In this document: positions 6,619 to 26,388 of the stretch, piece after piece | Layout of the letters: each line of letters starts with the position of its first letter | Numbering within the stretch: position 1 is the first letter of the stretch | NCBI GenBank assembly: GCA_030429455.1 | Contig: JAUIFC010000006.1 | Coordinates: 1 to 51,391 of the forward strand | Reading direction: 5' to 3' | Source of the DNA: Bacteroidia bacterium | GTDB lineage: Bacteria; Bacteroidota; Bacteroidia; Flavobacteriales; Flavobacteriaceae | DNA: 51,391 nucleotides | Translations under genes and position numbers: made by a program | The notes under the pieces: generated by a model | Database searches by the model: none | Told to the model about the DNA's origin: nothing | Seen by the model: only the letters and a program-made list of their open reading frames with translations

Positions 6619-6624
6619 GCTATT

Positions 6625-6987
6625 TTATCTTTCCAGTAGTTTTTTGAATTCTTCCAAGTCAAAGGGTTTTGGATAGTATAAATTAAAACCAGCATCCAAA
6701 CACTTTTGTTTCCACTCGTCTCCAAAATAGTTTGTGTGTGCAACGAATATGGAATTGGCTAGGTTTGGATACGTTTTTAGCTCTTCTAACACGCCAAAAC
6801 CATCAATCTCAGGGTCGTCTAAATTTAAATCCACAAGAAGGATTTCATATCCCTTTTGTTTTGCCAATTCAAAACATTGGTTTGCTGTTTCCACAGTATC
6901 TATTTGATATGCTTCAGAAGCTAATTTTTTGACAATAAAACGGTTAACGTTATTGTCTTCGACATATAAAATATTTTTCTTACTCAT
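6625..6987 (-). CDS. single-domain response regulator (phytochrome partner)
   Basis: This CheY-like receiver (120 aa) has no output domain. The acidic pair is in ILYVEDNN, the phospho-acceptor is Asp53 in LLVDLNLDD, the switch threonine is Thr85 in FVAHTN and the lysine is Lys107 in YYPKPFD. Its ATG overlaps the last eight bases of bphP, so translation is probably coupled and the two proteins made in step. Free-standing receivers next to phytochrome kinases (Rcp1 in cyanobacteria is the model) accept phosphate from the kinase. Here it must pass the signal by protein contact, since nothing DNA-binding is attached. Confidence 0.9.
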   Translation of the reverse strand: MSKKNILYVEDNNVNRFIVKKLASEAYQIDTVETANQCFELAKQKGYEILLVDLNLDDPEIDGFGVLEELKTYPNLANSIFVAHTNYFGDEWKQKCLDAGFNLYYPKPFDLEEFKKLLER

Positions 6988-9755: not shown

Positions 9756-12700
9756 ATGAGTGATAAAAAAGAAAACGATAAAGATTTGATAGTCATAGGT
9801 GTTGGTTCTTCGGCAGGAGGGATAAAGGCACTTCAAAATTTTTTTAGCGAGTTGCCAGTTCATCCAAGTTATGCCGTTGTTGTGGCACAACATCTTAGTC
9901 CTACACATAAAAGCAGTTTGCCACAGATTATACAAAAAAGCACTAAGCTTAAAGTGGAACAAGCTTCAAATGGCAAGGATTTATTGGGCGGATACATTTA
10001 TATTGCTCCTCCAGATAAAGACATCGAGGTTAAAGATCGAAAGATTATTTTAAGTCCATCTGAAACAGAATTTGGCCCAAAACCAAGTGTTAATAAGCTG
10101 CTATACAGCATTGCGCAAGAATTCAAAGAGCGGAGCATTGCTGTGATATTGTCAGGTACAGGAACAGATGGTGCTGCAGGTTCGGAACATCTACAGACAA
10201 GAGGTGGAAAAGTATTGGTTCAGGATCCTAGTGAAGCTGCTTTCGATGGCATGCCTTTGGCGAGTTTAAGTCATGTTTCTGTCACTATTTCGGCCAAAGC
10301 GCATGATTTAGGCAAGAAAATAAAGAGTTTAATCCTTAATAAAGAACCACTTGTTATCGAGGATGTTGTTGCTGGACCTAACGATGGACTTGCAACCATA
10401 TTAAAAATACTCGAACAACACAGTGGCGTGGATTTTAGGCGTTACAAATTTAGCACAATCGAACGTCGGCTAAATGGTCGAATGCTCAAATTGGGGCTTG
10501 TAAATTTTGAAGACTACATACAGCAAATAAAAGAACGCCCCAGTGAGTTACAGGTTTTATTTGAATATCTGCTCATCGGTGTTACAGAATTTTTTAGGGA
10601 ACCGGACTCCTTTAAGGCTTTAGAATATCAAATCGAAGATTACATCAACCAAACCCAAAAGACCGATTTAAGATTTTGGGTACCCGGTTGTGCTTCTGGA
10701 GAAGAGGCTTATAGCCTGAGTATCATCGTTAGCGAGATCAGTAAACGCATTAACAAAGACATCAAACTGCAAATATTTGCCACGGATATCGACCGTAAAG
10801 CACTGCAAACAGGTAGAAAAGGCATCTATTATAAGGATAGAGTCGAAGGCTTGCCAAAAGACATTATTTCGCGCTATTTTAAGGTCAAGGAGAATTACTA
10901 CGAGGTAAACAAGGAATTGCGGTCGAAAATCTTATTTTCCAATCACGATTTAACGGCCAATGCGCCTTTTAGCAAAATTGATCTGATAAGTTGCCGAAAT
11001 CTCTTCATATACTTTAACCGTGACTTGCAAGCGGATATTTTACCGTTATTGCATTACAGTCTTAATGAAAATGGCTTGCTCTTTTTAGGTAAGTCTGAGA
11101 ACATTACAGGTTTTGATAGCCTTTTTAAACCCATTGTAAAAAAACATCGCATTTGGGAGAAAGTTAACCACAAAAGGACCGATCCTATAAAGTTAATTCG
11201 TTTTAAAGGCAATAGCAACAAGGCTTCAACCATAGGAAAACCATTAAGTGCTTACAGCAAGGGCTTAAAAGAGATGGTCCAGAACAGCTTTTACCAAGAG
11301 TTGCACCATCCTTATATCGTTGTAAATTCCGATATGCAATTAGAATTCATAAATGGCGATCCAGATCCTTTTGTAAAATTAGGTCAAGGTGCTGTTTCAA
11401 ATTCATTACTTAAACTATTGCATCCTATGTTGCAAATAGAGGTGCAAGACACGGTGAGGTTGTCAAGAGAACGTAATGAATTAACGATTGGCGATTTTCA
11501 TGTATTAAAGGACGATGTGAGCACAAAAATTGTTCGCCCTGTCGTTTATCCCATTTTTAGCTTACAAGGTTTGTATTTTATCATTGTTTTCGACTATTTT
11601 CTGTTAAAGGAATTGCCAAAGGTGAGCAAGGACTTTGGTACTTTGCACGAACAAGCAGAATACCAATTCCTACAACAGGAATTAATTTCAACACGAGAGC
11701 ACTTACAATCGTATGTTGAGGAATTGGAGACATCTAACGAGGAAATGCAAGCCCTTAATGAAGAGCTTCAGAGCACTAACGAAGAGTTACAGAGTCTTAA
11801 TGAAGAATTGGAGACCTCTAACGAAGAGCTTCAAAGTACCAACGAGGAAATGCAAGTCGCTTACCAACAGTTGGAAAATACTCATACAGAAATTAAGCAA
11901 AAAGATGCCGAATTAAGAGAAACGATTGCATTTCTGGAAACAGTTCTTGATAATAACGAACAAGGTATTCTAATCGTAAATCAACATTTGAAAATAACCC
12001 AATTTAATTCTAGAGCTAAAGAGGTATTTAAAAATTTAGGAAAAACCCTTAGTCTAAATAAATCTATATTTTCTCAAGTGCCTAAAGAATGGCATATCAA
12101 ATTTGAAGAGTATTTAGAAGAGGCTAACACTAAAGATGTATGGCATAAGAGCATTATGATAGAGCGTAAAAACGATACACATCATTTCTTGTTAAGCATC
12201 AAAAATATAGCCAATAATCCTAGATCTAGTGATAGCAAGATCGTTAGCCTTTTGGATATTACCAAGGATAAAAAGTTAAGTAACGAATTGTCTAAACTCA
12301 ATTTACTACTAAATCAAGTTGGGCAATTGGCATCGATTGGCGGTTGGGAATTGGACGTCAAAACTGGCGAGGTGACAAGAACAGAGGAAAATTATAGAAT
12401 ACATGGCCTTCCTTTTGGAGATAGTCCTGGTTTGCTGAATAGCTTAGAGTTTTATCCCGAAGAAGCTCGAGTAAAACTAGAAAGACTTCTTAACAGACTC
12501 ATCAAACATGGTACCTATTACGATGAAATCTTCCCGTTTGTAGCGATCGATAATAAGGCAAAATTTGTACGAGTGACAGGTAGACCTCATATTGATGAAA
12601 ATGGCGAGATCACTAGAGTTTGGGGAACCATTCAAGACGTTACTGGAGATCACAAGAAAAAGATTGAAATCGAAGCCTTAAACCAAGAATTGCTCAGATC

Positions 12701-13373
12701 GAATAAAGAACTTACGGAGTTTGCTTACATTGCTTCTCACGACTTGCAAGAGCCATTACGCATGATTTCTAGTTTTACCCAACTTTTGGCAGATCGCTAT
12801 AAAGACAAACTAGACGAAAAAGCCAACGACTATATTTCTTATGCTGTAAATGGCGCTAAACGGATGAAAGAAATGATTACAGACCTTCTGGAATATTCTC
12901 GTGTAAACACCAGCGAAGAAGAGATTGTAGAAATAAGTCTAGAAGGCATTGTAAATGAAGTAAAATTGTTGCTCAAGTCCAAAATTGAAAGTACAGGAGC
13001 GCTTATTTCCGTTGGTCCTTTGCCATACATAAAAGGGATAAAAGTTTTAGTCGTTGCTTTGTTTCAAAACTTGGTCGACAATGCACTTAAATACACAGAA
13101 GACAGGCCAATTATTCATATAAGCAGTAGAGAAGACAACAAATATTTTCACATAGACATCAGAGACGATGGTATAGGAATTAATGCAAATAAATATGAAG
13201 ATATTTTTGTGATATTTAGGCGTTTACACAGCCCCGAAGCTTTCGAAGGAAACGGAATGGGACTGGCAGTTTGCAAAAGAATCATGCTACGCCATAAAGG
13301 AATGATAAGTGTGAAATCCAAGTTGGGTAAAGGGTCTACCTTTACAGTCAGTTTTCCAAAAGTAGAATTATAA
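9756..13373 (+). CDS. CheB-CheR-PAS histidine kinase fusion
   Basis: This 1205-residue multidomain protein joins chemotaxis adaptation enzymes to a kinase. CheB methylesterase (about 10-195) has Ser19 in GSSAGG, His46 in AQHLSP and Asp138 in LSGTGTDGAAG. CheR methyltransferase (about 210-480) has FRRYKFSTIERRL, the SAM loop VPGCASGEEAYS and FATDIDRKAL. A PAS domain follows (about 505-625), then a heptad coiled coil (about 640-730), PAS (about 735-850), PAS (about 850-975), HisKA with His995 in ASHDLQEPLR, and HATPase (NLVDNALKY, DDGIGI, GNGMGLAVCKR). No receiptor MCP, CheA or CheW gene is in the window, so the methylation target is unknown. It heads an operon with a receiver (16 bases on) and a giant PAS protein. 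A role in modulating the neighbouring light pathways is inference. Confidence 0.93.
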   Translation: MSDKKENDKDLIVIGVGSSAGGIKALQNFFSELPVHPSYAVVVAQHLSPTHKSSLPQIIQKSTKLKVEQASNGKDLLGGYIYIAPPDKDIEVKDRKIILSPSETEFGPKPSVNKLLYSIAQEFKERSIAVILSGTGTDGAAGSEHLQTRGGKVLVQDPSEAAFDGMPLASLSHVSVTISAKAHDLGKKIKSLILNKEPLVIEDVVAGPNDGLATILKILEQHSGVDFRRYKFSTIERRLNGRMLKLGLVNFEDYIQQIKERPSELQVLFEYLLIGVTEFFREPDSFKALEYQIEDYINQTQKTDLRFWVPGCASGEEAYSLSIIVSEISKRINKDIKLQIFATDIDRKALQTGRKGIYYKDRVEGLPKDIISRYFKVKENYYEVNKELRSKILFSNHDLTANAPFSKIDLISCRNLFIYFNRDLQADILPLLHYSLNENGLLFLGKSENITGFDSLFKPIVKKHRIWEKVNHKRTDPIKLIRFKGNSNKASTIGKPLSAYSKGLKEMVQNSFYQELHHPYIVVNSDMQLEFINGDPDPFVKLGQGAVSNSLLKLLHPMLQIEVQDTVRLSRERNELTIGDFHVLKDDVSTKIVRPVVYPIFSLQGLYFIIVFDYFLLKELPKVSKDFGTLHEQAEYQFLQQELISTREHLQSYVEELETSNEEMQALNEELQSTNEELQSLNEELETSNEELQSTNEEMQVAYQQLENTHTEIKQKDAELRETIAFLETVLDNNEQGILIVNQHLKITQFNSRAKEVFKNLGKTLSLNKSIFSQVPKEWHIKFEEYLEEANTKDVWHKSIMIERKNDTHHFLLSIKNIANNPRSSDSKIVSLLDITKDKKLSNELSKLNLLLNQVGQLASIGGWELDVKTGEVTRTEENYRIHGLPFGDSPGLLNSLEFYPEEARVKLERLLNRLIKHGTYYDEIFPFVAIDNKAKFVRVTGRPHIDENGEITRVWGTIQDVTGDHKKKIEIEALNQELLRSNKELTEFAYIASHDLQEPLRMISSFTQLLADRYKDKLDEKANDYISYAVNGAKRMKEMITDLLEYSRVNTSEEEIVEISLEGIVNEVKLLLKSKIESTGALISVGPLPYIKGIKVLVVALFQNLVDNALKYTEDRPIIHISSREDNKYFHIDIRDDGIGINANKYEDIFVIFRRLHSPEAFEGNGMGLAVCKRIMLRHKGMISVKSKLGKGSTFTVSFPKVEL
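11733..11858 (+). repeat. 21-base coding repeat, heptad coiled coil
   Basis: Six consecutive seven-codon units encode the pattern (S/T/L)-N-E-E-(L/M)-(Q/E)-x at residues 660-701 of the CheB/CheR fusion, for example TNEELQS and LNEELET. This is a rigid parallel coiled-coil linker common in this protein class. The 21-base periodicity also opens a spurious frame on the same strand. Confidence 0.85.
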
Positions 13374-13389
13374 AAAAACACATCTCAAA

Positions 13390-13794
13390 ATGAAAACAAT
13401 AGTCGTAATTGAAGATAATCCTGGAGATCAGGAGCTTATGGAGTCTGTTTTGGAGAGCATTCCTCCAGGAGATAATTTCGAGTTTTACAGCAATGCCGAA
13501 GATTATATAGAGGTGTTGCAACAAGATAAAGTCATACCAAAGCTCATAATACTCGACTTAAATTTGCCAAACCTCAGTGGGTTTAGTGTGTTGGAGGCAC
13601 TTAATGATATGGACATAATTCATAATGTTTCAGTCGTTGTATTATCTACATCTCGAACCGATTCCGATATAAAAAAGAGCTATGAGTTAGGAGCTAATGC
13701 GTTTATAGCCAAGCCTTTAAATTACTCGGAATTTAAACAATCGACTCAGAATCTAGTAGAGTTTTTTTTAAAGCATAACTTAACTGTTTCTTAG
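13390..13794 (+). CDS. single-domain response regulator (Rcp1-like)
   Basis: This 134-residue receiver has no output domain and is of the IEDNPGD type often found beside PAS and phytochrome kinases. Landmarks are the acidic pocket in VVIEDNPGD, phospho-acceptor Asp56 in LIILDLNLPN, Thr87 in VVLSTSRTDSD and Lys108 in FIAKPLN. It lies 16 bases after the CheB/CheR-kinase gene and 18 bases before the giant PAS gene, so it is the likely phosphate acceptor of the fusion kinase. Its TAG stop (13792-13794) is in the same frame as the following giant gene, which opens six codons later. Confidence 0.92.
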   Translation: MKTIVVIEDNPGDQELMESVLESIPPGDNFEFYSNAEDYIEVLQQDKVIPKLIILDLNLPNLSGFSVLEALNDMDIIHNVSVVVLSTSRTDSDIKKSYELGANAFIAKPLNYSEFKQSTQNLVEFFLKHNLTVS

Positions 13795-13812
13795 TTTTTA
13801 ATTTATTATAGT

Positions 13813-16800
13813 TTGGACGTAAAGATTTTACATATAGAAGACTCTCCGGGCGACCGTCGTTTGGTGGCAGAGTATTTAGAAGATTTTAAAAAAATAAGAG
13901 TAGAATATGTTGAAGCCTCGTCGTTAGATTCTGGTCTAAAACTCCTAGGAGAACAAACCTTTGACATCTTACTATTAGATTTAAATCTACCAAACAGCCT
14001 TGGTGTCGAAACAATGAATCAAGTCGACCCTTTAAAAATTTGTACTATTATTTTAAGTGGCTCCGACGATCAAGATTTGGCCCTTGATTGTATTAAATTC
14101 GGAGCACAAGACTTTATTCATAAAAATGATTTAAGCCCAGGCCTGCTAGAAAGAACCATACAATTTGGTCTAAAACGATGGCATATATACAATCAAAATG
14201 AAGAACTGAAAGCTAATTTGTTTTTCAAAGAACAACAGCTAGAGGCCATCAACAAAACCAAAAATGCTTATATCGTAAGAACAAATGTCGAAGGCCAGTA
14301 CACCTTTTATAACGAAAGTTTTGCAGAAACCTTTTTAAAAGAAGGCGAAAATCCTATAGGTTGCCATTCTCTATCGCATATTATGGAAGAGGATCACCAT
14401 AAAACTTTCAAAACAGTAGAGAAGTGTTTTAGCAGTCCTGGAGAAATTTTTACGGTCAACCTTAGAAAACCTGGGATAGAAGATGGTGTAGTTCATAATA
14501 CATCTTGGGAGTTTATGGCAGTGCAAGATGCAGAAGGAAATATCATCGAGGTTCAATGTACTGGTTACGACATTACAAGGCAGAAGGAAGAGATACGAAG
14601 CATCAAAGAGAAATACCAATTAAGTAAATCCTCCATAGACCATACTTCAGATTTAGTTATTCTTCATCATCACGATTTAAGAATCAATTTTGCTTCGCCG
14701 TCCGCTGTCAATATTATTGGATTTACCAATCGTGAGTTGTTTAAATTCAATTTTTTAGATCGAGTGCATCACAAGGATTTAGCGTTTGTTAAATCCACTT
14801 TTGAAAAGGTAAGCAAAAAAGACGCCACAGAAACGATGCGTTACAGGTTCAGACACGCCTTGGGGCAATACGTGTGGCTGGAAACGCGCGCAAGTAGTTT
14901 TTTTGATAACAACTCAAAAGAGCGCTTGATCATTACAAACTCTAACAATATTGACAGAACTATTGAAATAGAAAAGGAACTAGAATATAGCCAAGAACGC
15001 TACAGAAGTTTGTTTGCTACAAGTCCATACGCCATTGTAGTTACCGTGATGAGTTCTGGATTGGTGCTAGAAGTCAATCAAGCCTTGACCAATATCTCTG
15101 GTTTTACTCAGCAACAATTGCGGGGCAAAAGTTTTAATCTGTTAGGCATATGGAAGAAGCAAACGGATAAATTAGAATTTATCAATCGCTTAAAGCAGGA
15201 GAGGTACATAGACAATTACAACGCAGATTTTCGATTAGCCGATGGCACAACACATCAATGTATACTCTCGGCATCTATCGCTTACATAAATGGGCAAGAG
15301 TGTATCGTCAATTTTATTCAAGATATCCACGAACAAGTTGAATTAAAAAATAAGGTTGTTGAACAAGAAAAACGCTATAAAGACTTAATCGATAGCGTCG
15401 AAGATGTCATTTTTGAGCTAGATATGAAAGGCGAAATGACATTTGTTTCAACACAAATACAGCGTTACGGCTATACGGAAGAAGAGTTTATTAATTTAGC
15501 TCCCCAAGCTTACATACACCCAGTTGACTTAAACTATTATCAATCCCTATTCGAAAATGCGTTAAATGAAGACAAAAGCATACATAGCAGACCTTACCAG
15601 TTTAAGACCAAGGACGGAGGTTATGTTTGGCATCAATCCGATGGAGCTGCTAGAATGGATAGTAATGGGACTATTAGCGGTATTGTTTGCATTGCGAGAG
15701 ATGTTACACAAGATTTAAAGAGGGAAAAGGAATTAGAAATTGCGCATGACAAGGCAACAGGACTTCAATACAATCTCGAAAGCCAAAAATTTGCCTTAGA
15801 CCAACATGCGATTGTAAGTATTGCAAATAAAAAAGGAGAAATAACCTATGCTAATAAGATGTTTTGTGACATAAGTGGCTTTAATGCGGGCGAACTATTA
15901 GGTCAAGACCATCGGATTCTCAACTCTGGTTATCACAGCAAAAACTTCTTTAAAGAACTTTGGAGAACTATTAGCAGAGGCAAAGTTGGGAAAGGTGAAG
16001 TAAAGAATAAAGCAAAAGATGGTTCTTTTTATTGGGTACAGACGTCGATTGTTCCTAGAAAAGATGAAAAAGGGAAAATAGTCGAATACATCTCCATGCG
16101 CACGGATATTACGGCACGTAAGCAAGCAGAACTACAACTTGAAGAAAGAGAAGCAAGATTAAGTAGTTTGATTAATAGTGTAAATCAGGAAATATTTGCA
16201 ATCGATACGAATTATCGTGTTTTAGTAGGCAACGATAACTGGTTGAGGAATTTTAAACAATTTTTTGGAAAAGACATTCATATTGGAGACAAACTTGTAG
16301 ACGAACAAGGTATGTCAGAAGAATTCTTCTCGCCATGGAGAGAACAATACCAGAAAGTATTTAAGGGAGAATATTTTGAATCAAAAGAAAAATATGTTTT
16401 TCCAGGTGATGTAGAACGCTATGTAAATGTCAAACTAAGTCCATATCGAAATCATAAAAATGAGATAAGAGGTGCTGTGGTGTATAATGAGGATGTCACT
16501 CAACTTACATTAGCTCAACAAGAGGAGGAATACCAAAAAGAGTTAATGGCACATTTGGTCAACACGACTGGACACTTAATTAATGTGACTACAGAGTCCG
16601 AATTGCATCAACTTCTTGCAAAAAGTGTCCGATCTATTTTTGATGCACTTAACTGTATGGCGATAAGTGTGAGTTACGATACAGAGAACAGAAAATATGG
16701 TAGATTTTGTTTTGATGGACCTGAGGACCTTATTAAAAAGTTTCCTTTTTTAAACATTGCCTCCGATCAAGACAGCAGTTTTGATACCATTCCGGAAAGC

Positions 16801-19800
16801 TTGTTCGCAGCCCAAAAGCAAACGACGCTCTTTAAAATTAAAGGCATAAACCAGCTTTCTGAAAATCATTTTACAGAGGAAAGCAGAACTCTTTTTCAAG
16901 ACCTTTATCCAAATATTGAAATTTATACCATTGGCTATCAGCTTGATAAACAGGTGCAAGGCGCATTATTTTTTGGTTTAATTCAATCTGATCATAGAGT
17001 AGAAAAGGCTAAGTCCATCATAGAGACGATAGCTTCTCAATCCTCTACCGTGCTAGCTGCTTTAAGAAGCAAAGAAAAATTACAGATCACAACAACTCAA
17101 TTGAGCCAAGCCCAAGAGCTTGCGTCTTTAGGCTATTGGGAGTGGGACGTCGTAAAAGATCATGTCACTTGGTCGGATACCATGTGGGAGATATACGAAC
17201 TTGACCGCAAAATTAAAGCACTGGATTTGGATGGGCATGCAAAATTGTACTCCAAAGAGAGCTTTGATATACTGAGCGAATTAGTCAACAGATCCTTGAT
17301 CTACCATGAGCCTTATGACATAAAATTAACAGTTTTGACAGCTAAAGGCGAGAAATATATTCGGGCTTATGGCGCTCCAGAAATCCTGAATGACCAAGTT
17401 GTAAAGTTAAAAGGATATGTTCAAGACATAACAGAATTGGAAAAATCGAGACTTCGTGAACAAGAACGACTACAAAACATTCGTGTCTTAGCCAATTCTG
17501 CTTTCAAATTGTTAAATGTTTCAACTCGCGAAAGTTTGTACCAAACCGCTGTGGAAAGTTTTAAACTGTTGGCTAATAAGGATGCTATTATGTTATTTAA
17601 TTTATACAGTGAAGATTTAAGTGAATTTTCTACAGATTATATGCACTTTCCCGATGCGATGAAGGCTGAAATTCAGTTAGATGATTTTCAGTTTAAAGAC
17701 ATTTGGGTTCCAACTAATCCAGTATTTGTAAACGAATTAAGCACCAATGAATTTGTTTATGTCGAGCATCCAAATTTTACGTCAATCAACGCCATTATAC
17801 CAAATTTTAAACAAAAAGTTGAACAGAATTTCTCTCCTTACGAGTTTTATGTTTTTGGAATTTTATACAACGAAAATTTGTTTGGAAGTATCGATATCAT
17901 CATTCCAGACAAAATCAAATCTGACCAAAAAGACATCCTATTGTCTCTAGTGTCTCAAATTTCTTCAAGTTTTGCCCAACTCAATAGTAATGAACGTATT
18001 TTGGAATCCGAAACCCGTTTGCAATTGGCGATAGAGGCTTCTCAAGCCGGAATATACGAAGTAGATTTGAACACAGAACACTACTTCTACGATAAGAGGT
18101 TTGCCGAAATGCTTGGGTATAAAATGGAGGATTTTGCCAATTTAGGTTATGAAGTTATAAGCAAATTGACACATCCTGTGGACGTTAGCTTGATTATGGC
18201 AGATGTGTTATCTTCTGACGGACCTAAAAAGAAACATTCCACTTATCAGCATGAAATAAGGATGCAACATCGTGACGGGCATTATGTGTGGATTCAAGAC
18301 AGTGGTATAGTTTTGGAATGGCATAAAGACTTAGATAGTCCATCCAAATTTGTAGGTATTCTAATCGATCAAACCAAGCGTAAAGAAAGAGAGGAACAAC
18401 TGCTTCTTTTCGAATCTGTCATCACCAATGCGAAGGATGCAGTGTTGATAACTGATAATCAACTTAGTTCTCCTGGACCACATATCATTTATGCGAATAC
18501 TGCTTTTGAAAAGATGTCGGGGTATACCTTACAAGAAGTTTTGGGCAAATCTCCACGCATATTGCAAGGGCCTGGAACTTCAAAGGATACTACCGATGTT
18601 ATCAGAACTGCTCTTCAGAATAATGAAGTTGTGTCTGTTGAAATTGTGAATTATACCAAAAGTGGCGAACCTTATTGGGTAGATATGAACATTTCTCCAG
18701 TTTTTAATCAGGTTAATGAGGTTAGTCATTTCATCGCTATCGAAAGAGACATTACCCAACAAAAAGAAAGTCGGAATAAGTTACGTGAGGCATTAACGCG
18801 TTTAGAACTGGCGACAAGAACCTCTAAAATAGGCATTTGGGAATATAAACCTCAATCCAACGATTTGGTTTGGGATGTCTCTATGTTCGAATTATACGAA
18901 ATGAACCCTAAAGATTTTACAAGCCATGTGGATGCATGGGAAGAATCTTTGCATCCTGAAGATAGACAGAACGCAGAAAATGAACTTGCTTTGGCAATGT
19001 CTGGTGACAAAGAATTTGATACGCGTTTTCGTATTAAGACGCCAGAAGGCCAAATAAAATACATATCGGCCATAGCACATACAGAGTTTACAGATGGGCG
19101 TGCTACACGTGTTGTAGGTTTAAATTGGGACGTTACAGAACAAGTTACGCGGCAGATCGAAATCGAAAATGCACTTAATGAGCGCGAAGAAATTCTTAAC
19201 TCGATGAGTGATGGATTCTTTGAAGTAGATCATAATTGGAACATAACTTATTGGAGTAAATCTGCTTCGGAAATTATGGGTGCTCAAAAAGAAGAAGTCT
19301 TAAACAAAAATCTATGGGAGCTTTATGCCGATGCGCTTGATACAAATTTCTTTAGAGAGTATCATATCGCCATGGAAACTGGAAAACAGCGAAAAGCTGT
19401 TGATTTTCATATTGGAAGTAAAAAATGGTTAGAGGCTACCGCCTATCCGAAGGAAGATGGATTAGCTATATTTTTCAGAGATATAACACACGAACACGAC
19501 TATCAAGAAGAGCTTGAGCGCTTAAAACAAAATCGAGAAGCTCTAGTAAATACAACAGATGATTTCATTTGGTCGGTAGATTCGGAAATGAATTTAATAA
19601 GTGCAAATGATGCCTTTATAAAACGATTTAAGAAGCTTACTGGTCATAACATCACGGAAGGCGATTACATATTACAAAAGGAATTAAAAGCAAGTTATTT
19701 AGAACGGTGGAAAGAACTTTATAAAAGTGCCCTAAAAGGTGAAGAAGTAAAAGAACTTATCGAAAATGATTCCTATGATGATGAGCGTGTATTGTCTATA

Positions 19801-20124
19801 TCTTTATATCCTATTCAAGATGCAGATCATAATGTAACAGGTGTGGCTTGTTATTCCCGCGATGTTAGCGAACGCTTTAAATATTTGAAAGCCTTAGAAA
19901 GTCAAAACGAGCATTTGAAGGATATAGCTTGGAAACAAAGCCATCTTGTACGGGCGCCTTTAGCAAATATCATGGGTGTGATAAATCTATTTGATTTCGA
20001 AGACATGTCTGAAACGCTAGACCAAGAAACACTTGATCTCATGGAAATCATGAGGGAGTCCACAACCAAATTGGACGACATTATACACGACATCACAAAA
20101 AGAACCCAAGAAGCTAAGTGGTAG
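13813..20124 (+). CDS. giant receiver / 12xPAS / 2xGAF protein ending in an orphan kinase dimerization domain
   Basis: This 2103-residue sensor begins with a receiver domain (Asp56 in LLLDLNLPN, Ser82, Lys104). Twelve PAS units follow, at about 145-905 (six), 1095-1210, and 1400-2025 (five), most closed by a D-(I/V)-T type end motif. GAF-like domains lie at about 910-1090 and 1215-1400. The last 75 residues (2029-2103) look like a HisKA helical hairpin with His2044 in WKQSHLVRAPLANIMG, but the protein stops before any HATPase. It cannot autophosphorylate as a normal kinase and may be phosphorylated in trans or act as a scaffold. The start is TTG at 13813: the receiver strand KILHIED begins three codons later and the preceding in-frame codons run back to the regulator's stop. 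The PAS at 1530-1655 is LOV-like in sequence (LGKSPRILQGPGT) but lacks the flavin-binding Cys. Confidence 0.9.
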   Translation: MDVKILHIEDSPGDRRLVAEYLEDFKKIRVEYVEASSLDSGLKLLGEQTFDILLLDLNLPNSLGVETMNQVDPLKICTIILSGSDDQDLALDCIKFGAQDFIHKNDLSPGLLERTIQFGLKRWHIYNQNEELKANLFFKEQQLEAINKTKNAYIVRTNVEGQYTFYNESFAETFLKEGENPIGCHSLSHIMEEDHHKTFKTVEKCFSSPGEIFTVNLRKPGIEDGVVHNTSWEFMAVQDAEGNIIEVQCTGYDITRQKEEIRSIKEKYQLSKSSIDHTSDLVILHHHDLRINFASPSAVNIIGFTNRELFKFNFLDRVHHKDLAFVKSTFEKVSKKDATETMRYRFRHALGQYVWLETRASSFFDNNSKERLIITNSNNIDRTIEIEKELEYSQERYRSLFATSPYAIVVTVMSSGLVLEVNQALTNISGFTQQQLRGKSFNLLGIWKKQTDKLEFINRLKQERYIDNYNADFRLADGTTHQCILSASIAYINGQECIVNFIQDIHEQVELKNKVVEQEKRYKDLIDSVEDVIFELDMKGEMTFVSTQIQRYGYTEEEFINLAPQAYIHPVDLNYYQSLFENALNEDKSIHSRPYQFKTKDGGYVWHQSDGAARMDSNGTISGIVCIARDVTQDLKREKELEIAHDKATGLQYNLESQKFALDQHAIVSIANKKGEITYANKMFCDISGFNAGELLGQDHRILNSGYHSKNFFKELWRTISRGKVGKGEVKNKAKDGSFYWVQTSIVPRKDEKGKIVEYISMRTDITARKQAELQLEEREARLSSLINSVNQEIFAIDTNYRVLVGNDNWLRNFKQFFGKDIHIGDKLVDEQGMSEEFFSPWREQYQKVFKGEYFESKEKYVFPGDVERYVNVKLSPYRNHKNEIRGAVVYNEDVTQLTLAQQEEEYQKELMAHLVNTTGHLINVTTESELHQLLAKSVRSIFDALNCMAISVSYDTENRKYGRFCFDGPEDLIKKFPFLNIASDQDSSFDTIPESLFAAQKQTTLFKIKGINQLSENHFTEESRTLFQDLYPNIEIYTIGYQLDKQVQGALFFGLIQSDHRVEKAKSIIETIASQSSTVLAALRSKEKLQITTTQLSQAQELASLGYWEWDVVKDHVTWSDTMWEIYELDRKIKALDLDGHAKLYSKESFDILSELVNRSLIYHEPYDIKLTVLTAKGEKYIRAYGAPEILNDQVVKLKGYVQDITELEKSRLREQERLQNIRVLANSAFKLLNVSTRESLYQTAVESFKLLANKDAIMLFNLYSEDLSEFSTDYMHFPDAMKAEIQLDDFQFKDIWVPTNPVFVNELSTNEFVYVEHPNFTSINAIIPNFKQKVEQNFSPYEFYVFGILYNENLFGSIDIIIPDKIKSDQKDILLSLVSQISSSFAQLNSNERILESETRLQLAIEASQAGIYEVDLNTEHYFYDKRFAEMLGYKMEDFANLGYEVISKLTHPVDVSLIMADVLSSDGPKKKHSTYQHEIRMQHRDGHYVWIQDSGIVLEWHKDLDSPSKFVGILIDQTKRKEREEQLLLFESVITNAKDAVLITDNQLSSPGPHIIYANTAFEKMSGYTLQEVLGKSPRILQGPGTSKDTTDVIRTALQNNEVVSVEIVNYTKSGEPYWVDMNISPVFNQVNEVSHFIAIERDITQQKESRNKLREALTRLELATRTSKIGIWEYKPQSNDLVWDVSMFELYEMNPKDFTSHVDAWEESLHPEDRQNAENELALAMSGDKEFDTRFRIKTPEGQIKYISAIAHTEFTDGRATRVVGLNWDVTEQVTRQIEIENALNEREEILNSMSDGFFEVDHNWNITYWSKSASEIMGAQKEEVLNKNLWELYADALDTNFFREYHIAMETGKQRKAVDFHIGSKKWLEATAYPKEDGLAIFFRDITHEHDYQEELERLKQNREALVNTTDDFIWSVDSEMNLISANDAFIKRFKKLTGHNITEGDYILQKELKASYLERWKELYKSALKGEEVKELIENDSYDDERVLSISLYPIQDADHNVTGVACYSRDVSERFKYLKALESQNEHLKDIAWKQSHLVRAPLANIMGVINLFDFEDMSETLDQETLDLMEIMRESTTKLDDIIHDITKRTQEAKW

Positions 20125-20210: not shown

Positions 20211-21767
20211 TTACTTACAAGGTAAATGTTCAAATTGTTCAGCTATTGAAATGATATGCTCTGTTAAGTGTTCAATCTCAGGGCTTAATGCGCGATCTTC
20301 TTGGAGTGGAGAAAAATGAGAGCCAAAATAGGTTAACCAATCTAAGCTTTGTGCAGAAGGTTGGCGATTAATCTGTTTTAGCCGATGCCTTAAAGCCTCG
20401 ATATTTACCATGCATTCAATGCTTATCAAAGGTTTTAGGATGTTGAGCATCTGTTGTCCTCGCCAAGCGGAAGCTGTACCCATACTTACCATGTCTTGGT
20501 TTTGTCCATTGGTACTTAAACTTTGTAAACTAAGCGGTTGATACAAGCTTTTCAGTTCTGCGCAAAGCGCTGTGGCTGTGACTTGTGCACCCATAAAACC
20601 GCTGTTTTCGCCTTCATTTCCTGATTTTAAAAATGCTGGTAAGCCCAAATTAAGCTTCGAATCGCATAAGGTGCTGATTCGTTTTTCGGCATAAATGCCT
20701 AAATAAGCCATTTGAAGATTTAGCTGATCTGACGAAAAAGACACATGTTGCCCATTAAAGTTGCCACCATGATAAACTTGTTTGTCTATGGAGAAGAAAT
20801 TCGGGTTGTCGCTTATACTGTTCATCTCAATAGTGATGCAATCTTGAATTTGCTGTAGTTGGTCTTTTACAGCACCTAGCAATTGAGGAATACAACGGAT
20901 GGAATAAGGGTCTTGAGGCCATTTGGCTTCAAAAGGGTGTTCAAGTTCCATGGGGTTATGTTGAAACCAACCTTCTTTACTCTGTTGGTACAACCAGTTG
21001 GAAACCGCAATGTGGCCTTTTTGTGGATGTAGTTGTGCTAATTTAGGATGCCAAGCTTCTGGATATGCGCCTAAACATTCTCCATAAGAAAAAGCAAGTT
21101 GACTACTTAATCGAAATAAAACCAAGGTCTCATAAAGATTTCTTGCAACTATCGATGTCATGGCAGCAGTGCCATTTACAAAAGCGAGCGCATCTTTATT
21201 TGACCATTTTATGGCTGAAAAGGGATGTGTCTTATCAAAATCGCTAGCTAAATACGTCTTTCCTTTCCATTGAAAATCAGCCTGACCAGCTAAGCCAAGA
21301 GCCAAATGCGCCAATGGTGTTAAATCTCCACTGGCACCAACAGAACCCAAAGCAGGAATTTCTGGCAGAAAGTTCATTTGAAATGCCTGAACTAGGGTTT
21401 TAAAACTCTCAGGATTGATGCCAGAATAGCCTTGAGCAAGTTGTTTTAAGCGTAAAGCCAATATCATCCTTGTAATTTCAGGTTTTAACTTTGGGCCAAC
21501 ACCAGTTGCCAAGTGATAAATCAAACGTTCTTGCCGTTGTAAGTTGGCAGAAGCATCCTCGGAGGCTAAAGGGCCAAAACCACTGCTTACGCCGTAAATC
21601 CATTTGCCTTTTTCAATAAGCGCTTTCAAGGTCTCATAAGCTAAATTTACCTTTTCGAAATCAGAGCGGTTAACGTCTATGTTTTTAGCTTGATTGCCAA
21701 TAGCAATAAAATCTGCTAAAGACCAATGATCAGAAAAATGTAGTTTCGAATTTGTGCCTCTTGTCAT
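20211..21767 (-). CDS. tal: tyrosine ammonia-lyase for the PYP chromophore
   Basis: This 518-residue aromatic amino acid lyase contains the self-forming MIO cofactor triad Ala145-Ser146-Gly147 in GSVGASGDLTPLAH. Catalytic Tyr58 is in IYGVSSGFGPLA. The selectivity position reads His85-Leu86 (LIYHLATG), matching the His-Leu pair that gives Rhodobacter TAL its preference for tyrosine; histidine lyases have Ser-His and plant PALs Phe-Leu there. The predicted reaction is L-tyrosine to p-coumarate plus ammonia. It overlaps the upstream ligase by ATGA (21764-21767), is the last gene of the PYP operon, and has no hut genes nearby. All of this favours chromophore synthesis over histidine degradation. 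Confidence 0.9.
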   Translation of the reverse strand: MTRGTNSKLHFSDHWSLADFIAIGNQAKNIDVNRSDFEKVNLAYETLKALIEKGKWIYGVSSGFGPLASEDASANLQRQERLIYHLATGVGPKLKPEITRMILALRLKQLAQGYSGINPESFKTLVQAFQMNFLPEIPALGSVGASGDLTPLAHLALGLAGQADFQWKGKTYLASDFDKTHPFSAIKWSNKDALAFVNGTAAMTSIVARNLYETLVLFRLSSQLAFSYGECLGAYPEAWHPKLAQLHPQKGHIAVSNWLYQQSKEGWFQHNPMELEHPFEAKWPQDPYSIRCIPQLLGAVKDQLQQIQDCITIEMNSISDNPNFFSIDKQVYHGGNFNGQHVSFSSDQLNLQMAYLGIYAEKRISTLCDSKLNLGLPAFLKSGNEGENSGFMGAQVTATALCAELKSLYQPLSLQSLSTNGQNQDMVSMGTASAWRGQQMLNILKPLISIECMVNIEALRHRLKQINRQPSAQSLDWLTYFGSHFSPLQEDRALSPEIEHLTEHIISIAEQFEHLPCK

Positions 21768-22864
21768 TTGTCAAACTTACTAAAACTGGAGTAACCGACA
21801 TCCCATTTACGAGGCTTAAAAACTGAAGGTATGGTTTTAAGATAGGATTGCAATTGTTCTTCAAACTCTTTTTGCAAAATACCCTGTTCCAATTGAAAGT
21901 AACTGTACAGCCGTGTTCCCCAATGGTCTTCATATGGTTTTACCCAAACTTCTCTTATGCCAGGTACTTCTTTTAAGCGCTTTTGAACTTGAGCGATGGA
22001 CACATTTTCGCCTCCAATTTGTATCATCTTATCTTTCCTGCCAATAACACGGAATTCGCGTTGATTTGTCCACGACAGATGATCAGGAATCGTGTGTATT
22101 TGACTATGTCTTACAATTTTATCTCCGTCTTTTTTCCAGTAGGGCAGAAGTTCGAAGTGGTTGTTCTTCCATTTTTGGTAGGCAATACCAGCAGTTTCTG
22201 TACTGCCATAAATATTCATGCCTTTAATGTTTTGGTGGCGTAGTCTGTCTGTCAATGCTTTTTCTATCGGAGCTGTAGAACTTACAGCCAATAGATGAGG
22301 AAAAGGTGGTGAAATGTATTGCCAAGCCGTCGGATGTCCAATAATTAAATCTTTATCGGTTGCAGTTTCTCTTATTTTGTGCCATTCGTTTTGGTTTAAG
22401 AATTTTGCTTGTTTTAGTTTTGATCCTAAGAGCAAACCCCAAATAAAACCATAAATGTGCCTCACTGGAACCAAACATAATAGCCCTTCTGCTTGTGTGT
22501 ATGTCAACCAAAAGTCTCGCTCTTCTATAAGTGTGTTTTTAGAATGCCAAACCTCTTTTGGTGTACCACTTGTGCCTGAGGAGAAAAATCCAAACCTTTT
22601 ATTCGGATCATTTGCAGCTTTGTGAATTTGAGTTAGCCAATCTTTGGTATGTTTATATTGCAAAAGATAGGCATCCTTATCGCCAGAAAGCATATCAAAC
22701 CGAAAATGAAATTCTGCAGCCAGGTCTAAAATTTCTAGTGAATCCAAGCCTAAATCTAGAACCAAATCACCTTTAAAAGGTATGTGTTGTTGTCTTGGAA
22801 TACACTTCCAAAACACCTCATTAATCAATACTTCTAATCGCTCTAGATCAAGAATCTCCGCCAT
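21764..22864 (-). CDS. pcl: p-coumarate-activating ligase with N-terminal acyl-carrier-like domain
   Basis: This 366-residue protein has two visible parts. Residues 1 to about 75 look like an acyl carrier protein: VLDLGLDSLEILDLAAEF with Ser42 in the DSL motif, where phosphopantetheine would attach. Residues from about 85 are an ANL-superfamily adenylating enzyme with the P-loop FFSSGTSGTPKE, YGSTETAGIAY, GRKDKMIQIGGENVS and a C-terminal SKFDK lysine. The usual 100-150 residues ahead of the P-loop are nearly absent, so the adenylation domain is unusually short. Its stop overlaps the TAL start and its ATG directly abuts the stop of the hybrid kinase (TAAATG). In other PYP systems the matching enzyme makes p-coumaroyl-CoA. 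Here loading onto the fused carrier is plausible but unproven. Confidence 0.85.
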   Translation of the reverse strand: MAEILDLERLEVLINEVFWKCIPRQQHIPFKGDLVLDLGLDSLEILDLAAEFHFRFDMLSGDKDAYLLQYKHTKDWLTQIHKAANDPNKRFGFFSSGTSGTPKEVWHSKNTLIEERDFWLTYTQAEGLLCLVPVRHIYGFIWGLLLGSKLKQAKFLNQNEWHKIRETATDKDLIIGHPTAWQYISPPFPHLLAVSSTAPIEKALTDRLRHQNIKGMNIYGSTETAGIAYQKWKNNHFELLPYWKKDGDKIVRHSQIHTIPDHLSWTNQREFRVIGRKDKMIQIGGENVSIAQVQKRLKEVPGIREVWVKPYEDHWGTRLYSYFQLEQGILQKEFEEQLQSYLKTIPSVFKPRKWDVGYSSFSKFDK

Positions 22865-24433
22865 TTATTTTGGAAGTCCAATTTCAAACTCTGCACCAAC
22901 TGAAGGCTGGTTTATTTGAATATAACCTTTGTGCGCATCGATAATTTGCTTGACAATGGCAAGACCTAATCCTGTGCCATGTTCCTTGTTTTTGGTAACA
23001 AAAGCTTCAAAAAGTTTCGCTTTAATGTCCTCTGGAATACCTGGACCATTATCTTTAATTTTAATGGTAATATGGTCATTTACTTCTTCGCAGATAAGGT
23101 CGATTTTTGGTGCTTCTGTTTTGTTTTCAATCAAGGCTTCACAGGCATTCTTAACCAAATTGATTAAAACACGGTCCATTTTTTTGACATCAATCCCCAA
23201 GTCTACGTCTTCAAAACCAATCATATTGACCTGAACATGACCTATTTCCTCATTTCGCTTAAGCGTTATAATCACATCTTTAAGCCAGTTGTTTAAATTT
23301 ACCTCCGTCTTTTTGATGGAAGCGTTTTTGGTAAAGTCCATCACATCGGCTATGATATCTGATGCATTTTGGGTCGCATCCAATATAAAATTAGCCAATG
23401 TTTCATTTTCTTCTGCATTGCCCGGATCCATTTTTATCAACTCGGCAATGCCCATGAGCTGAGCTATTGGCGATCTGATGTCGTGCATCACCATACTAAT
23501 GGCTTGGCCAACAGCCGAAAGTTTTTCTTGTTTTATCAATTGTTCGCTGAGTTCGGAATTTTTAATCGCCCTTACAGCGTTTTCGACAAACAAGCGTAGG
23601 AGATAAATCTTTTCTTGATTGAAAAGCTCTGGTTCTGATGGTACTGCCAAAATACAATATTGTTCCAAAGGACAAATTAAAACACCTTCAGTGTATTTAA
23701 TGTCATTCACCGATTGAATGTCAATCTTTTCAGATAACAAATCGATTCGAATTCTATGTTTGCCCGTACCCATGGACGAAACTTCTTCAAACGAATCATC
23801 TTGGAATTTCCCTAAAATCGCATAATCGGTGCCGATGTAGTCTGCAATTTGATGTAAAATATTGGTTAATAAGGTTTTGAGTTGTGTAGCGCCTAAGCCA
23901 ATTTCACCAATAATTTCTAGTAGTTTTTCAAGATTTGTCAATCTTGCCCAATCGTAAAGGCTTTTTGTAGCCAGTTGTAGGATTTCTTCTGGAATAAAAG
24001 GTTTGCTTAAATAACCGACGTCTCCACCTGCTTGTTTGATGATTTCGTCAATACTCCGATCGGTAAATGCAGTAATGAAGGAGATTTGTGCCTTAGGGTC
24101 TAACTTTCTAATTTCCACACAAGTCGTTAAGCCATCCCAACCTGGCATTCGCATGTCGATAAAAATAACAGTAAAGGGTTGGCCTTTTTCAAGACTTTCC
24201 TTTACTTTTTCCAATCCTTCTTCTCCATTTTTGGCTTCAGTAATTTCAAAATCTGGATGTAGTCCACGAGGATTGCGTTCTACCACTTCTTCGATTTCGC
24301 CAAACAAATCTGAGGAAGCTTCGCCAAGCTCCAGAGAAGACTCGTCTTCTTCTTTTGGAGATAAAATTTCTCTTATGCTATCTCTTACTATTTCTTCATC
24401 GTCTATGATGAGTAATCGGCTAATAATCTTCAT
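22865..24433 (-). CDS. receiver-histidine kinase hybrid of the PYP operon
   Basis: This 522-residue cytoplasmic protein has an N-terminal receiver (about 1-160) with Asp93 in VIFIDMRMPGWDG, Thr121 in FITAFTD and Lys144 in YLSKPF. The receiver carries an acidic insertion of about 35 residues (26-60) after helix 1. A GAF-like region (about 170-290) follows, then HisKA with His317 in SMVMHDIRSPIAQLMG and a complete HATPase (NLVKNACEAL, KDNGPGIPE, GTGLGLAIVKQ). It starts two bases after the upstream kinase's stop. The receiver-first layout suggests it accepts phosphate from that kinase and in turn controls its own kinase domain. No membrane segment or DNA-binding domain is present. Confidence 0.9.
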   Translation of the reverse strand: MKIISRLLIIDDEEIVRDSIREILSPKEEDESSLELGEASSDLFGEIEEVVERNPRGLHPDFEITEAKNGEEGLEKVKESLEKGQPFTVIFIDMRMPGWDGLTTCVEIRKLDPKAQISFITAFTDRSIDEIIKQAGGDVGYLSKPFIPEEILQLATKSLYDWARLTNLEKLLEIIGEIGLGATQLKTLLTNILHQIADYIGTDYAILGKFQDDSFEEVSSMGTGKHRIRIDLLSEKIDIQSVNDIKYTEGVLICPLEQYCILAVPSEPELFNQEKIYLLRLFVENAVRAIKNSELSEQLIKQEKLSAVGQAISMVMHDIRSPIAQLMGIAELIKMDPGNAEENETLANFILDATQNASDIIADVMDFTKNASIKKTEVNLNNWLKDVIITLKRNEEIGHVQVNMIGFEDVDLGIDVKKMDRVLINLVKNACEALIENKTEAPKIDLICEEVNDHITIKIKDNGPGIPEDIKAKLFEAFVTKNKEHGTGLGLAIVKQIIDAHKGYIQINQPSVGAEFEIGLPK

Positions 24434-24435
24434 CT

Positions 24436-25674
24436 TTATTCGGTTATGTAGGGGAGTTTGATAATAAATTCTGCACCAGTGCCAGGGCCTTTACTCGTAA
24501 TGCTTAGGGCTCCTTGATGAGTTTCTATGATTTGTTTACAATTGTACAGGCCAAATCCCGTACCGGTTTTTTTATGGGTGTTGCCTTTTTCAAGCAGTTT
24601 TTCAGACAGACTGGGCTCAAAGCCAATAGCATTGTCTTTTATACTTAAGACCACCATTTCGCTCTCTCTGTCGATGCTCAAGTCGATTATTAATTGTTTG
24701 TGTCGGTCTTCTTTTAATTCGTCATAGGCTTCAGCACTATTTTTAAAGGCATTGATCAACACTTGAATCAGTTTTGTTTTATCGCCTTTAATTGGTGGAT
24801 TGTCCAATGGAATATTTCTGCTTATTTCGACACCTCTTTTTACAAGGCTTTGTTCATGAATAGACATGGCATCTTCGATTACCGTGCTTAATTTGAAGGC
24901 GGCGCGTTCTCCTTTTGTCTTCCCTTTTACATAGCTTCGTTGAATATTAAGTATGTCCTGAATGTGACTCGTAGTTTGGTAGAGCTTGTTGATGACGGTT
25001 AAAATATCACCTTCGCGAAACTCAAGACTTTTTCTTAAGGCACTTAAAAACTTTTTTAAAGCAGCACCTTTTCCTCTCCCAAGTGCAGTGTCAAGCGCAT
25101 CAATTTTCTTTTCAAACAAGCCTTCTAGTTTAGATAATTCCGTTTTTTCTTTGCCTTCTGCTTTGGCTTGTAATCGGGCCACATCTGTGCCAAAAGAGGT
25201 TACAGCATTTCCGATATCATGTAATACACCTGTAGCCATTTCTAGTTTTCCAGCTTCTAAAGCCTTGGTTTCGGCAATAGCGCTTAGCTCTTCTTCGACT
25301 TTTACCCTTGCGGAAATATCATTAAAGGCATATTGGTATACTGCTTCATTTATTCTAATGACGGAAAATGCTAAATAAATAGATTCACTTTGGCCTGGAA
25401 AATTTAAGCTTACTCTTTCGTTTTCGAATATTATACCGAAATTATTTTTGAAATTCTTAATGCGTTCCAACCATTCAGGTTTCAAATCTTTGAGTATCGC
25501 AAAAATATCCGTTGTGGAACAGCCGGATTGCATACAAAATGGTATCAAGATTTGACTTGCGGCGGCATTTTGCATCATGATTTGCCCGTTTTGATCCGCC
25601 TTAATAATGCCAAAAGGGCATTGATTAAGAAAATCTACTAGAGCATGAAATTCTTTTTCCGATTCAGTGCGCAT
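24436..25674 (-). CDS. PAS histidine kinase directly downstream of PYP
   Basis: This soluble sensor kinase (412 aa) has a PAS-like domain at about 10-125 that closes with QYAFNDISARVKVEEEL. A short helix leads to an unusual H-box, ATGVLHDIGNAVTS, with His152. The helical hairpin is long (to about 265), with a charged segment around 170-215. The HATPase has the N-box NAFKNSAEAY, G1 as DNAIGF (Ala where Gly is usual) and GTGFGLYNCKQ. It starts ten bases after the pyp stop codon on the same strand, so it is the best candidate for the protein that reads PYP's light state. That partnership is inferred from position only. Confidence 0.9.
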   Translation of the reverse strand: MRTESEKEFHALVDFLNQCPFGIIKADQNGQIMMQNAAASQILIPFCMQSGCSTTDIFAILKDLKPEWLERIKNFKNNFGIIFENERVSLNFPGQSESIYLAFSVIRINEAVYQYAFNDISARVKVEEELSAIAETKALEAGKLEMATGVLHDIGNAVTSFGTDVARLQAKAEGKEKTELSKLEGLFEKKIDALDTALGRGKGAALKKFLSALRKSLEFREGDILTVINKLYQTTSHIQDILNIQRSYVKGKTKGERAAFKLSTVIEDAMSIHEQSLVKRGVEISRNIPLDNPPIKGDKTKLIQVLINAFKNSAEAYDELKEDRHKQLIIDLSIDRESEMVVLSIKDNAIGFEPSLSEKLLEKGNTHKKTGTGFGLYNCKQIIETHQGALSITSKGPGTGAEFIIKLPYITE

Positions 25675-25684
25675 GTGTTAAAGA

Positions 25685-26044
25685 TCAAGACTTTTGAACG
25701 AGCAGATATTGATGGTCTTGGCCTGGACTGCAAAGCATACGCAATTTTACTTTTGTGGGTTGCATCAAGTAAGTGAATATGTAATCAAGCTCTTCATCCA
25801 ATGCAGCCTCTGTATTGTATTTTTCGGCGACCATGAAATTATTTGTACAAGGTGCAACTTGTTGGAAAAAGTCTTTTCCTAAAACTTCTTCAACTTGTTT
25901 TCCAGAAAGGTCCGATTCAAATTTGTTGTAGGCTTTGATCCTGGCATTACGATCCATGCGAATAACACCAAAGTCCAATTGATCCATGTCTTGTTGGCTC
26001 ATTGGTTCTAAGGTTTCAAAAGGTTTGGAAGTGTTAAAAGTCAT
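25685..26044 (-). CDS. pyp: photoactive yellow protein
   Basis: This 119-residue PAS-fold blue-light receptor aligns with Halorhodospira halophila PYP. LDFGVIRMDRNARIKAYN corresponds to that protein's segment around residues 26-43, GKDFFQQVAPCT carries the chromophore cysteine, and YLMQPTKVKLRM matches the strand with the Met100 gate. With a three-residue offset, Tyr42 is Tyr39, Glu46 is Glu43 and Cys69 is Cys66, all kept. Thr50 is Ser47 and Arg52 is Lys49. Met100 corresponds to Met94, after a three-residue shortening of the loop following the cysteine. It is the first gene of the operon PYP / kinase / receiver-kinase / ligase / TAL. The chromophore should be p-coumarate thioester-linked to Cys66. 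Confidence 0.95.
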   Translation of the reverse strand: MTFNTSKPFETLEPMSQQDMDQLDFGVIRMDRNARIKAYNKFESDLSGKQVEEVLGKDFFQQVAPCTNNFMVAEKYNTEAALDEELDYIFTYLMQPTKVKLRMLCSPGQDHQYLLVQKS

Positions 26045-26388
26045 AATTTATATTTATAGAATTAATAAATGTATTTTAACAGTAATAGAAATATTTAAGT
26101 TTAATTTAAAGCTAAAATTACTAAAAAAAACCAAAAACTAAAAACATTTTTTTATGAAATTTTTAGGAATATTCGGTTTTTATTGATTTTAGTTATTCAA
26201 TTGTTTTTCATCTGAATTGGAAAATAATTTTTATGACAAATTTCAATTTTTGATATTGATTTTTTCAATCAATACTCATGTTTGATTGTCGCTATTTATG
26301 AAGAGGTTTTAGTTAAAGAAATTATTTTCATCTTCTGCTCATATATCATTTATGCCTTATATTTAAGCATTGAAATATAACGGAACAA
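26045..26388. other. 344-base divergent control region upstream of pyp
   Basis: Very A/T-rich, between pyp (minus) and a small membrane protein gene (plus). I found no perfect TAnnTTTG on the pyp side; the closest is TAGTTTTT read on the minus strand at 26140-26133. No gene or RNA is visible. Confidence 0.5.

Follow-up and report, generated by a model that had tools for sequence, protein, structure and literature searches.

Through which partner does a single-domain photoactive yellow protein (PYP) pass on its signal? This question is raised by a five-gene operon on a contig of a Flavobacteriaceae genome (Bacteroidia bacterium, GenBank assembly GCA_030429455.1, contig JAUIFC010000006.1), which was analysed over its whole length of 51,391 nucleotides and is referred to below as the window. 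On the minus strand, the genes for PYP, a histidine kinase with an N-terminal PAS domain (PAS-kinase), a second kinase headed by a receiver domain (receiver-kinase), a p-coumarate ligase (pCL) and a tyrosine ammonia-lyase (TAL) follow one another in this order with spacings of 10, 2 and 0 bases and one 4-base overlap, and open reading frame (ORF) calling and recomputed gaps agree exactly with the layout reported in an earlier, sequence-only reading of this DNA (Table 1). The window unites a signalling trio and the chromophore genes in one operon, and we consider it probable, on the comparative evidence presented here, that the operon is a self-contained blue-light signalling unit in which PYP contacts and signals through a PAS domain, here named PASx. 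The sequence-only reading had placed the two kinases downstream of PYP; among the points it did not contain is that the conserved partner of pyp is this PAS domain and not the kinase behind it.

Judged by its sequence, the segment formed by the first ~125 residues of the PAS-kinase is a distinct PAS subfamily. Pfam detects it in only one of 12 members (E 0.0012), while its AlphaFold model (pLDDT 91) finds PAS proteins as its best Foldseek matches (best E 1.4e-4). When whole genomes were searched with a PASx profile (A5 alignment, 12 rows, threshold E 1e-6) regardless of whether they encode PYP, 26 of 941 genomes in three groups matched, namely 2/395 Bacteroidota, 3/296 Spirochaetota and 21/250 members of the family of a Methylibium metagenome-assembled genome (MAG), G782. 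All 26 genomes carry pyp, and in every one the end of the PYP stretch precedes PASx, on the same strand, by 11-198 bp; four of these genomes (G000, G749, G773, G782) supplied rows of the profile, and the other 22 supplied none. Among genomes negative for PASx, pyp was present in one of the 52 tested (of 229) in the G782 set (Fisher p 2e-17, with rows treated as independent) and in 12 of 393 Bacteroidota, for which the PYP and PASx searches used equal-sized sets of the same listed genomes; this check covered the Bacteroidota and G782 sets. Within these sets PASx is always accompanied by PYP, whereas a PYP may occur without PASx. Additionally, PASx matched 11 of 72,556 plasmid records, and pyp lies just upstream in all 11, nine of these neighbours being taken from the search tables and two (CP071131, CP049319) from reading the regions. 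In five plasmid records (CP099603, NZ_CP049319, NZ_CP071131, NZ_CP049159, NZ_CP048421) PYPs of this kind are annotated as 'phosphonate transporter', which looks like a misannotation.

The PYPs that stand next to PASx are themselves distinguishable from other PYPs. Of 132 aligned PYPs, 36 were classed as PASx-linked (PASx within 250 bp) and 96 as others, and directly after the chromophore cysteine most of the linked proteins read NN[FY][ML]VAx[KR][FY], the window protein having NNFMVAEKY. This loop pattern occurs in 35/36 linked PYPs vs 1/96 others (p 1e-29 if rows are independent), and the sole loop-bearing protein among the others has a PASx 849 bp away. In the tree, the 36 linked PYPs and this 849-bp one form a single clade (support 100/99); because its 121 columns include those of the loop, the tree cannot test the loop independently. 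Inside the clade, the PYPs of the window, of G749 and of eight Spirochaetota group together, with weak support (84/72), and the kinase-linked PYPs of two further Spirochaetota genomes, G798 and G857, fall among GGDEF-linked PYPs (group 93/95), a placement which suggests that the output module behind PASx has been exchanged.

Outputs also vary in the domain compositions of the PASx proteins. Among 27 proteins scanned, of the 45 PASx stretches listed, GGDEF occurs in 19, EAL in 8, HATPase_c in 6 and HisKA in 5, and these output domains are perhaps undercounted because some PASx proteins end at the edge of the locus. In the Methylibium MAG, PASx heads PAS-GGDEF and GGDEF-EAL proteins behind a second pyp. 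In G749, which belongs to the class of the window but to another family, pyp is followed by a 138-residue protein and then by a ligase; the 138-residue protein aligns only with the N-terminal part of the window kinase, and here PASx stands alone. At locus L072 (positions 12430-14643) a further protein combines a PASx-like domain with Hpt and HATPase domains. A PYP origin of PASx was considered and set aside: a profile comparison aligned only 44 columns (probability 80), so kinship of the two beyond the PAS fold is unproven.

The PYP of the window would be expected to function as a photoreceptor. The sequence-only reading had recognised it by its chromophore cysteine and pocket residues, and the identification is borne out by a match to TIGR02373 (E 6.3e-27), by alignments to PYP chains of the Protein Data Bank (PDB) with E values down to 1.9e-18, and by identity with Halorhodospira halophila PYP at 9/9 positions of the chromophore pocket in the PDB alignment. 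The pocket set comprises I31, Y42, E46, F62, V66, A67, P68, C69 and F96 (PMC12826048), and the chromophore cysteine, Cys69 in H. halophila numbering, is Cys66 in the window protein. Its TIGR02373 score misses the curated cut-off (94.1 vs 143.05 bits); in a published survey the model recognised 155 homologues, ~20% of the number that BLAST retrieved (PMC9664959). All 36 PASx-linked PYPs keep Cys69 and Glu46, and Tyr42 is present in 32 and replaced by Val in four, these being the Spirochaetota PYPs of L052, L054, L055 and L057; across PYPs this position is reported as Tyr in 90.8% and Phe in 8.9% (PMC12826048). Outside the pocket set, Phe92 is replaced by Leu and Trp119 by Tyr in the window PYP, while Met100 is retained, as is Phe96. 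Some genomes encode several PYP-like domains: G689, G766 and G708 have four to six each, some of them in open frames of 529-1123 residues, and at least three (L040, L043 and L047) are without the chromophore Cys.

Both kinases recur beside pyp in the nearest relatives. PYP relatives were collected by searching a 16-row PYP alignment against a named genome collection and using the best 80 of 164 matches (79 loci). Among these, the eight closest loci are all from Spirochaetota MAGs, with PYPs at 43-52% identity; a homologue of the PAS-kinase follows pyp in 8/8, and the receiver-kinase comes next in 7/8, the eighth contig ending inside the PAS-kinase gene. The expectation of the sequence-only reading that kinase genes would be conserved next to pyp in related genomes is thereby upheld, and the genome-wide linkage described above extends it to the PAS domain of the kinase. 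In six of the Spirochaetota loci the surroundings are of two kinds, one shared by L052, L054, L055 and L057 and another by L050 and L053, so the trio is what the six have in common; the next gene in the first kind of surroundings lies on the other strand and is presumably ribH-like. A shared downstream output gene was also sought, and none lies beside the trio in all six. A PYP-type ligase match is present on another contig in each of the eight closest genomes (E 2.6e-40 or better).

The kinases themselves differ in how completely they are recognised. The PAS-kinase matches HATPase_c (E 9e-17) and HATPase_c_5 above the Pfam cut-offs, and neither a PAS nor a HisKA match was obtained in the Pfam scan, though the stretch LHDIGN is present. 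This protein aligns with seven Spirochaetota kinases at 31-33% identity (A3 alignment), and LHDIGN is retained in 8/8 aligned cassette kinases, window included; the window protein reads DNAIGF vs DNGxGF in the seven relatives. In the receiver-kinase, by comparison, Response_reg, HisKA and HATPase_c all exceed their Pfam cut-offs, and D11, D12, D93, K144, H317 and N429 are invariant in seven aligned rows including that of the window.

For the two chromophore enzymes, the assignments of the sequence-only reading hold at the level of the protein family, while two curated cut-offs are missed. The ammonia-lyase matches Lyase_aromatic (E 7.3e-123), and both motifs by which it had been called a TAL, the ASG triad and the His-Leu pair, are found, the latter in register with the H-L of PDB entry 2o6y (alignment E 4.5e-77). 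Entry 2o6y is the TAL of Rhodobacter sphaeroides, and the His-Leu pair is the selectivity motif of TALs. The score of the window lyase lies below an NCBIfam equivalog cut-off for a TAL (FlxA model, 304 bits vs 700). The ligase is closest to the model for PYP-type 4-coumarate ligases, TIGR02372 (E 1.9e-51), and misses the curated cut-off of that model (174.9 vs 334.7 bits); among 12 PYP-bearing genomes, TIGR02372 matched in 10 and exceeded its cut-off in one. The AMP-binding model PF00501 is matched above its cut-off (40.1 vs 29.9).

A feature which the ligase of the window shares with its PYP-linked relatives is its N-terminal segment. BLAST alignments to most PYP-linked ligases start near a GLDSLE stretch, and the Ser of this motif is invariant in 32/32 PYP-type ligases, window included. 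In the AlphaFold model (pLDDT 87) the N-terminus has three main helices (7-21, 42-55, 73-84), compared with the four-helix bundle of carrier domains, and short helical turns at residues 63-65 and 67-69; the second main helix starts at Ser42, a hallmark of carrier domains. A profile of 18 ligase N-termini, compared with the PDB, retrieved mainly acyl carrier proteins (best E 0.0057, most far weaker), and the Pfam PP-binding family matches 4/18 of these N-termini (best E 2.4e-7), the window ligase on its own scoring under the PF00550 cut-off (13.6 vs 20.8 bits). A Foldseek search with the whole ligase returned adenylating enzymes, with no lone carrier protein among the 50 matches listed, so the carrier reading depends on sequence evidence, the serine and the arrangement of helices. 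From these lines of evidence, an N-terminal acyl-carrier-like domain appears to be built into PYP ligases, a feature that the sequence-only reading did not note and of which literature searches aimed at it found no report in titles and abstract openings. The fusion protein EntE-EntB (PDB 3rg2, rank 33 among the Foldseek matches of the ligase model) likewise joins an adenylating to a carrier domain; unlike in 3rg2, the window ligase has its carrier-like domain at the N-terminus and totals only 366 residues.

Table 1. Genes and domains of the PYP operon, in order of transcription (window coordinates)
Feature	Coordinates	Strand	Basis
pyp, single-domain PYP, 119 aa, chromophore Cys66	26044-25685	minus	ORF call, TIGR02373, PDB chains
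PASx-histidine kinase (PAS-kinase), 412 aa; LHDIGN 151-156, HATPase_c 297-409	25674-24436	minus	Pfam, A3 alignment
PASx domain, residues 1-128 of PAS-kinase, proposed PYP receiver domain	25674-25291	minus	A5 alignment, AlphaFold, genome searches
REC-HisKA-HATPase receiver-kinase, 522 aa; Asp93, Lys144, His317	24433-22865	minus	Pfam, residue alignment
p-coumarate ligase, PYP type, 366 aa, with apparent N-terminal acyl-carrier-like domain	22864-21764	minus	TIGR02372, AlphaFold
Apparent acyl-carrier-like domain of ligase, residues 1-84; Ser42 of DSL motif	22864-22613	minus	Ser, helices, profiles
Tyrosine ammonia-lyase, 518 aa; ASG 145-147, His85-Leu86	21767-20211	minus	Lyase_aromatic, 2o6y alignment

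Taken together, these features suggest the following course of events. TAL, by its family and residues, would make p-coumarate from tyrosine; the ligase would activate p-coumarate, which its own carrier domain may hold, and the chromophore would be loaded on Cys66 of PYP. With an intact pocket, blue light would then drive the PYP photocycle, and PASx at the front of the PAS-kinase would read the signalling state, most likely through direct contact with PYP in which the loop behind the chromophore cysteine takes part, as genome linkage and the association of loop and PASx suggest. The PAS-kinase may in response change its phosphorylation state and pass phosphate to, or withdraw it from, the receiver of the second kinase; catalytic residues are present. 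Elsewhere PASx would serve as a portable adaptor, placed behind same-clade PYPs on GGDEF, GGDEF-EAL and other histidine-kinase modules. In its general form, towards which we lean, PASx would be the dedicated, portable receiver of one clade of single-domain PYPs, a light-switched PAS-PAS pair whose contact is set by the loop and whose attached enzyme is exchanged, and, as a side claim, p-coumarate would be attached to the carrier domain of the PYP ligase before it is transferred to PYP.

Several other explanations compete with all or part of this scheme. PAS domains commonly bind ligands, and PASx may be an ordinary sensor PAS domain with a ligand of its own, in a block that is simply inherited, while PYP acts in parallel and makes no contact with it. 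The ordinary PAS fold of PASx and the descent of all PASx-linked PYPs from one clade agree with such an arrangement; it sits poorly with the persistence of PASx behind PYP despite the varying output modules, with the solitary PASx behind pyp in G749, and with a loop shared by the clade and missing from 95/96 other PYPs, and we judge it unlikely. A possibility to be taken more seriously, if still the lesser one, leaves PYP in control of the kinases and alters their order: the receiver-kinase would be the main enzyme and the PAS-kinase a phosphatase or decoy, or the two would form a hetero-oligomer instead of a relay. The completeness of the receiver-kinase speaks for this, as do the unrecognised HisKA and the deviant DNAIGF of the PAS-kinase, whereas conservation of LHDIGN in every aligned cassette kinase speaks against it. 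That PYP is no blue-light receptor at all, its cysteine binding another group or sensing redox, is improbable for a protein with a fully conserved pocket, encoded together with TAL and a ligase, in a group that invariably keeps Cys69 and Glu46; shifts of this sort have nonetheless been proposed for some PYPs (PMC9664959), and four relatives have Val in place of Tyr42. Finally, the kinases might lie beside pyp by chance or recent transfer, functionally unrelated to it. The block does look accessory, with a phytochrome domain in none of the ten other genus genomes searched and with almost no DNA match to window positions 6-20 kb in six genus mates, yet the same gene order across phyla and the unbroken linkage of PASx to pyp already contradict this explanation so largely that we give it next to no credence; chance adjacency in particular was rejected on the pyp-PAS-kinase order of the 8/8 closest loci.

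There are also observations that weigh against the signalling operon we favour. The 12 Bacteroidota genomes with PYP and without PASx indicate that other PYPs signal otherwise, and individual loci depart from the pattern: L230 (CP099603) has a loop-bearing PYP and no PASx within 6 kb, L185 a PASx-linked PYP without the loop, and in L072 (Myxococcaceae) the PYP that lies 2 kb from a PASx-like domain lacks the loop. As all PASx-linked PYPs form one clade, their association with PASx possibly goes back to a single event, and shared descent inflates the linkage counts, the Fisher values treating rows as independent. The operon is without a response regulator bearing an output domain and does not include the final target, and the photochemistry of the four Spirochaetota PYPs may differ because Val replaces Tyr42.

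The setting of the operon was compared across the family and the genus. The window spans an entire contig of a draft assembly that totals 4.1 Mb in 310 contigs and is 86% complete. A convincing PYP occurs in one of 397 genomes of the family of the window; weak TIGR02373 matches in 12 other genomes of the family (E 1.7e-5 or worse, in frames of at least 129 residues, mostly large proteins) were dismissed as not PYP. The right flank (~28.4-44 kb) has long DNA matches at 66-78% identity in 6/6 genus mates searched, on which ground contamination of the contig was rejected: the contig fits its genus, though the light-sensing block is not shared, the region at 6-20 kb having hardly any DNA match in six genus mates. 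This block is accessory and has perhaps been acquired. Upstream of pyp, a 344-base gap (26045-26388) separates it from a divergent ORF of 155 residues without a Pfam match, and this gap is likely the promoter region. About 16 kb from pyp, at 6007-9367 on the minus strand, genes for a bacteriophytochrome kinase (PAS_2-GAF-PHY-HisKA-HATPase), a single receiver and a heme oxygenase lie close together, forming a red-light system that includes an enzyme for its chromophore and that the sequence-only reading did not mention; a phytochrome domain occurs in one of 11 genus genomes, that of the window. Between this system and the pyp operon, and convergent with the latter, plus-strand genes at 9756-20124 encode a CheB-CheR-PAS-HisKA-HATPase fusion (1205 residues), a lone receiver (134 residues) and a 2103-residue protein in which Pfam finds a REC domain and seven PAS_4 stretches and no HATPase match.

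Comparison with described systems shows which parts of this arrangement have precedents. The pyp-pcl-tal operon of H. halophila likewise supplies PYP with its own pCL and TAL; unlike the window operon, it consists of three genes without kinases (PMC12826048), and by our alignment its PYP is without the NN[FY]xVA loop. In a survey of 113 pyp operons, TAL was found in 7, pCL in 42, HisKA in 8, HATPase in 9, GGDEF in 29 and phytochrome in none (PMC12826048), and the present loci may be among these operons. The kinase-bearing operons of that survey resemble the window in having a histidine kinase gene within the operon, but their kinases lie preferentially upstream of pyp, whereas the window has two in a row after it and joins them with both pCL and the rarely found TAL. 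Clade C PYPs, which stand beside GGDEF genes and have been suggested to modulate adjacent GGDEF/EAL proteins, have lost the conserved Phe92, Phe96 and Trp119 and kept Met100 (PMC9664959). The window PYP is like them in not keeping Phe92 and Trp119, in keeping Met100 and in having an adjacent signalling gene, and differs in its retained Phe96, its Bacteroidota host and a PASx that sits on a kinase; the tree holds no row labelled in PMC9664959. In Ppr of Rhodospirillum centenum, a PYP-phytochrome-kinase fusion, PYP similarly feeds a histidine kinase with a phytochrome partner (PMC12826048, PMC9664959), but Ppr is one fused protein, while the proteins of the window are separate and its phytochrome belongs to an operon of its own.

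That PYP acts on a neighbouring enzyme, and that kinase and GGDEF genes lie near pyp, is already published. The shared PASx domain, its linkage to pyp, the loop and the two-kinase cassette are not mentioned in the literature surveyed, including the available portions of PMC12826048 and PMC9664959. The carrier-like domain of the ligase raises the question of whether a protein, and not free CoA, delivers the chromophore. If the proposed pairing is correct, PASx would give single-domain PYPs a specific partner and close a gap that has long existed for a model photoreceptor; its consistent position behind pyp reduces the question of the partner, for one PYP clade, to a simple binding experiment. 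The pair could also constitute a two-part light switch, or plug-in optogenetic module, that could be placed before kinases or cyclases.

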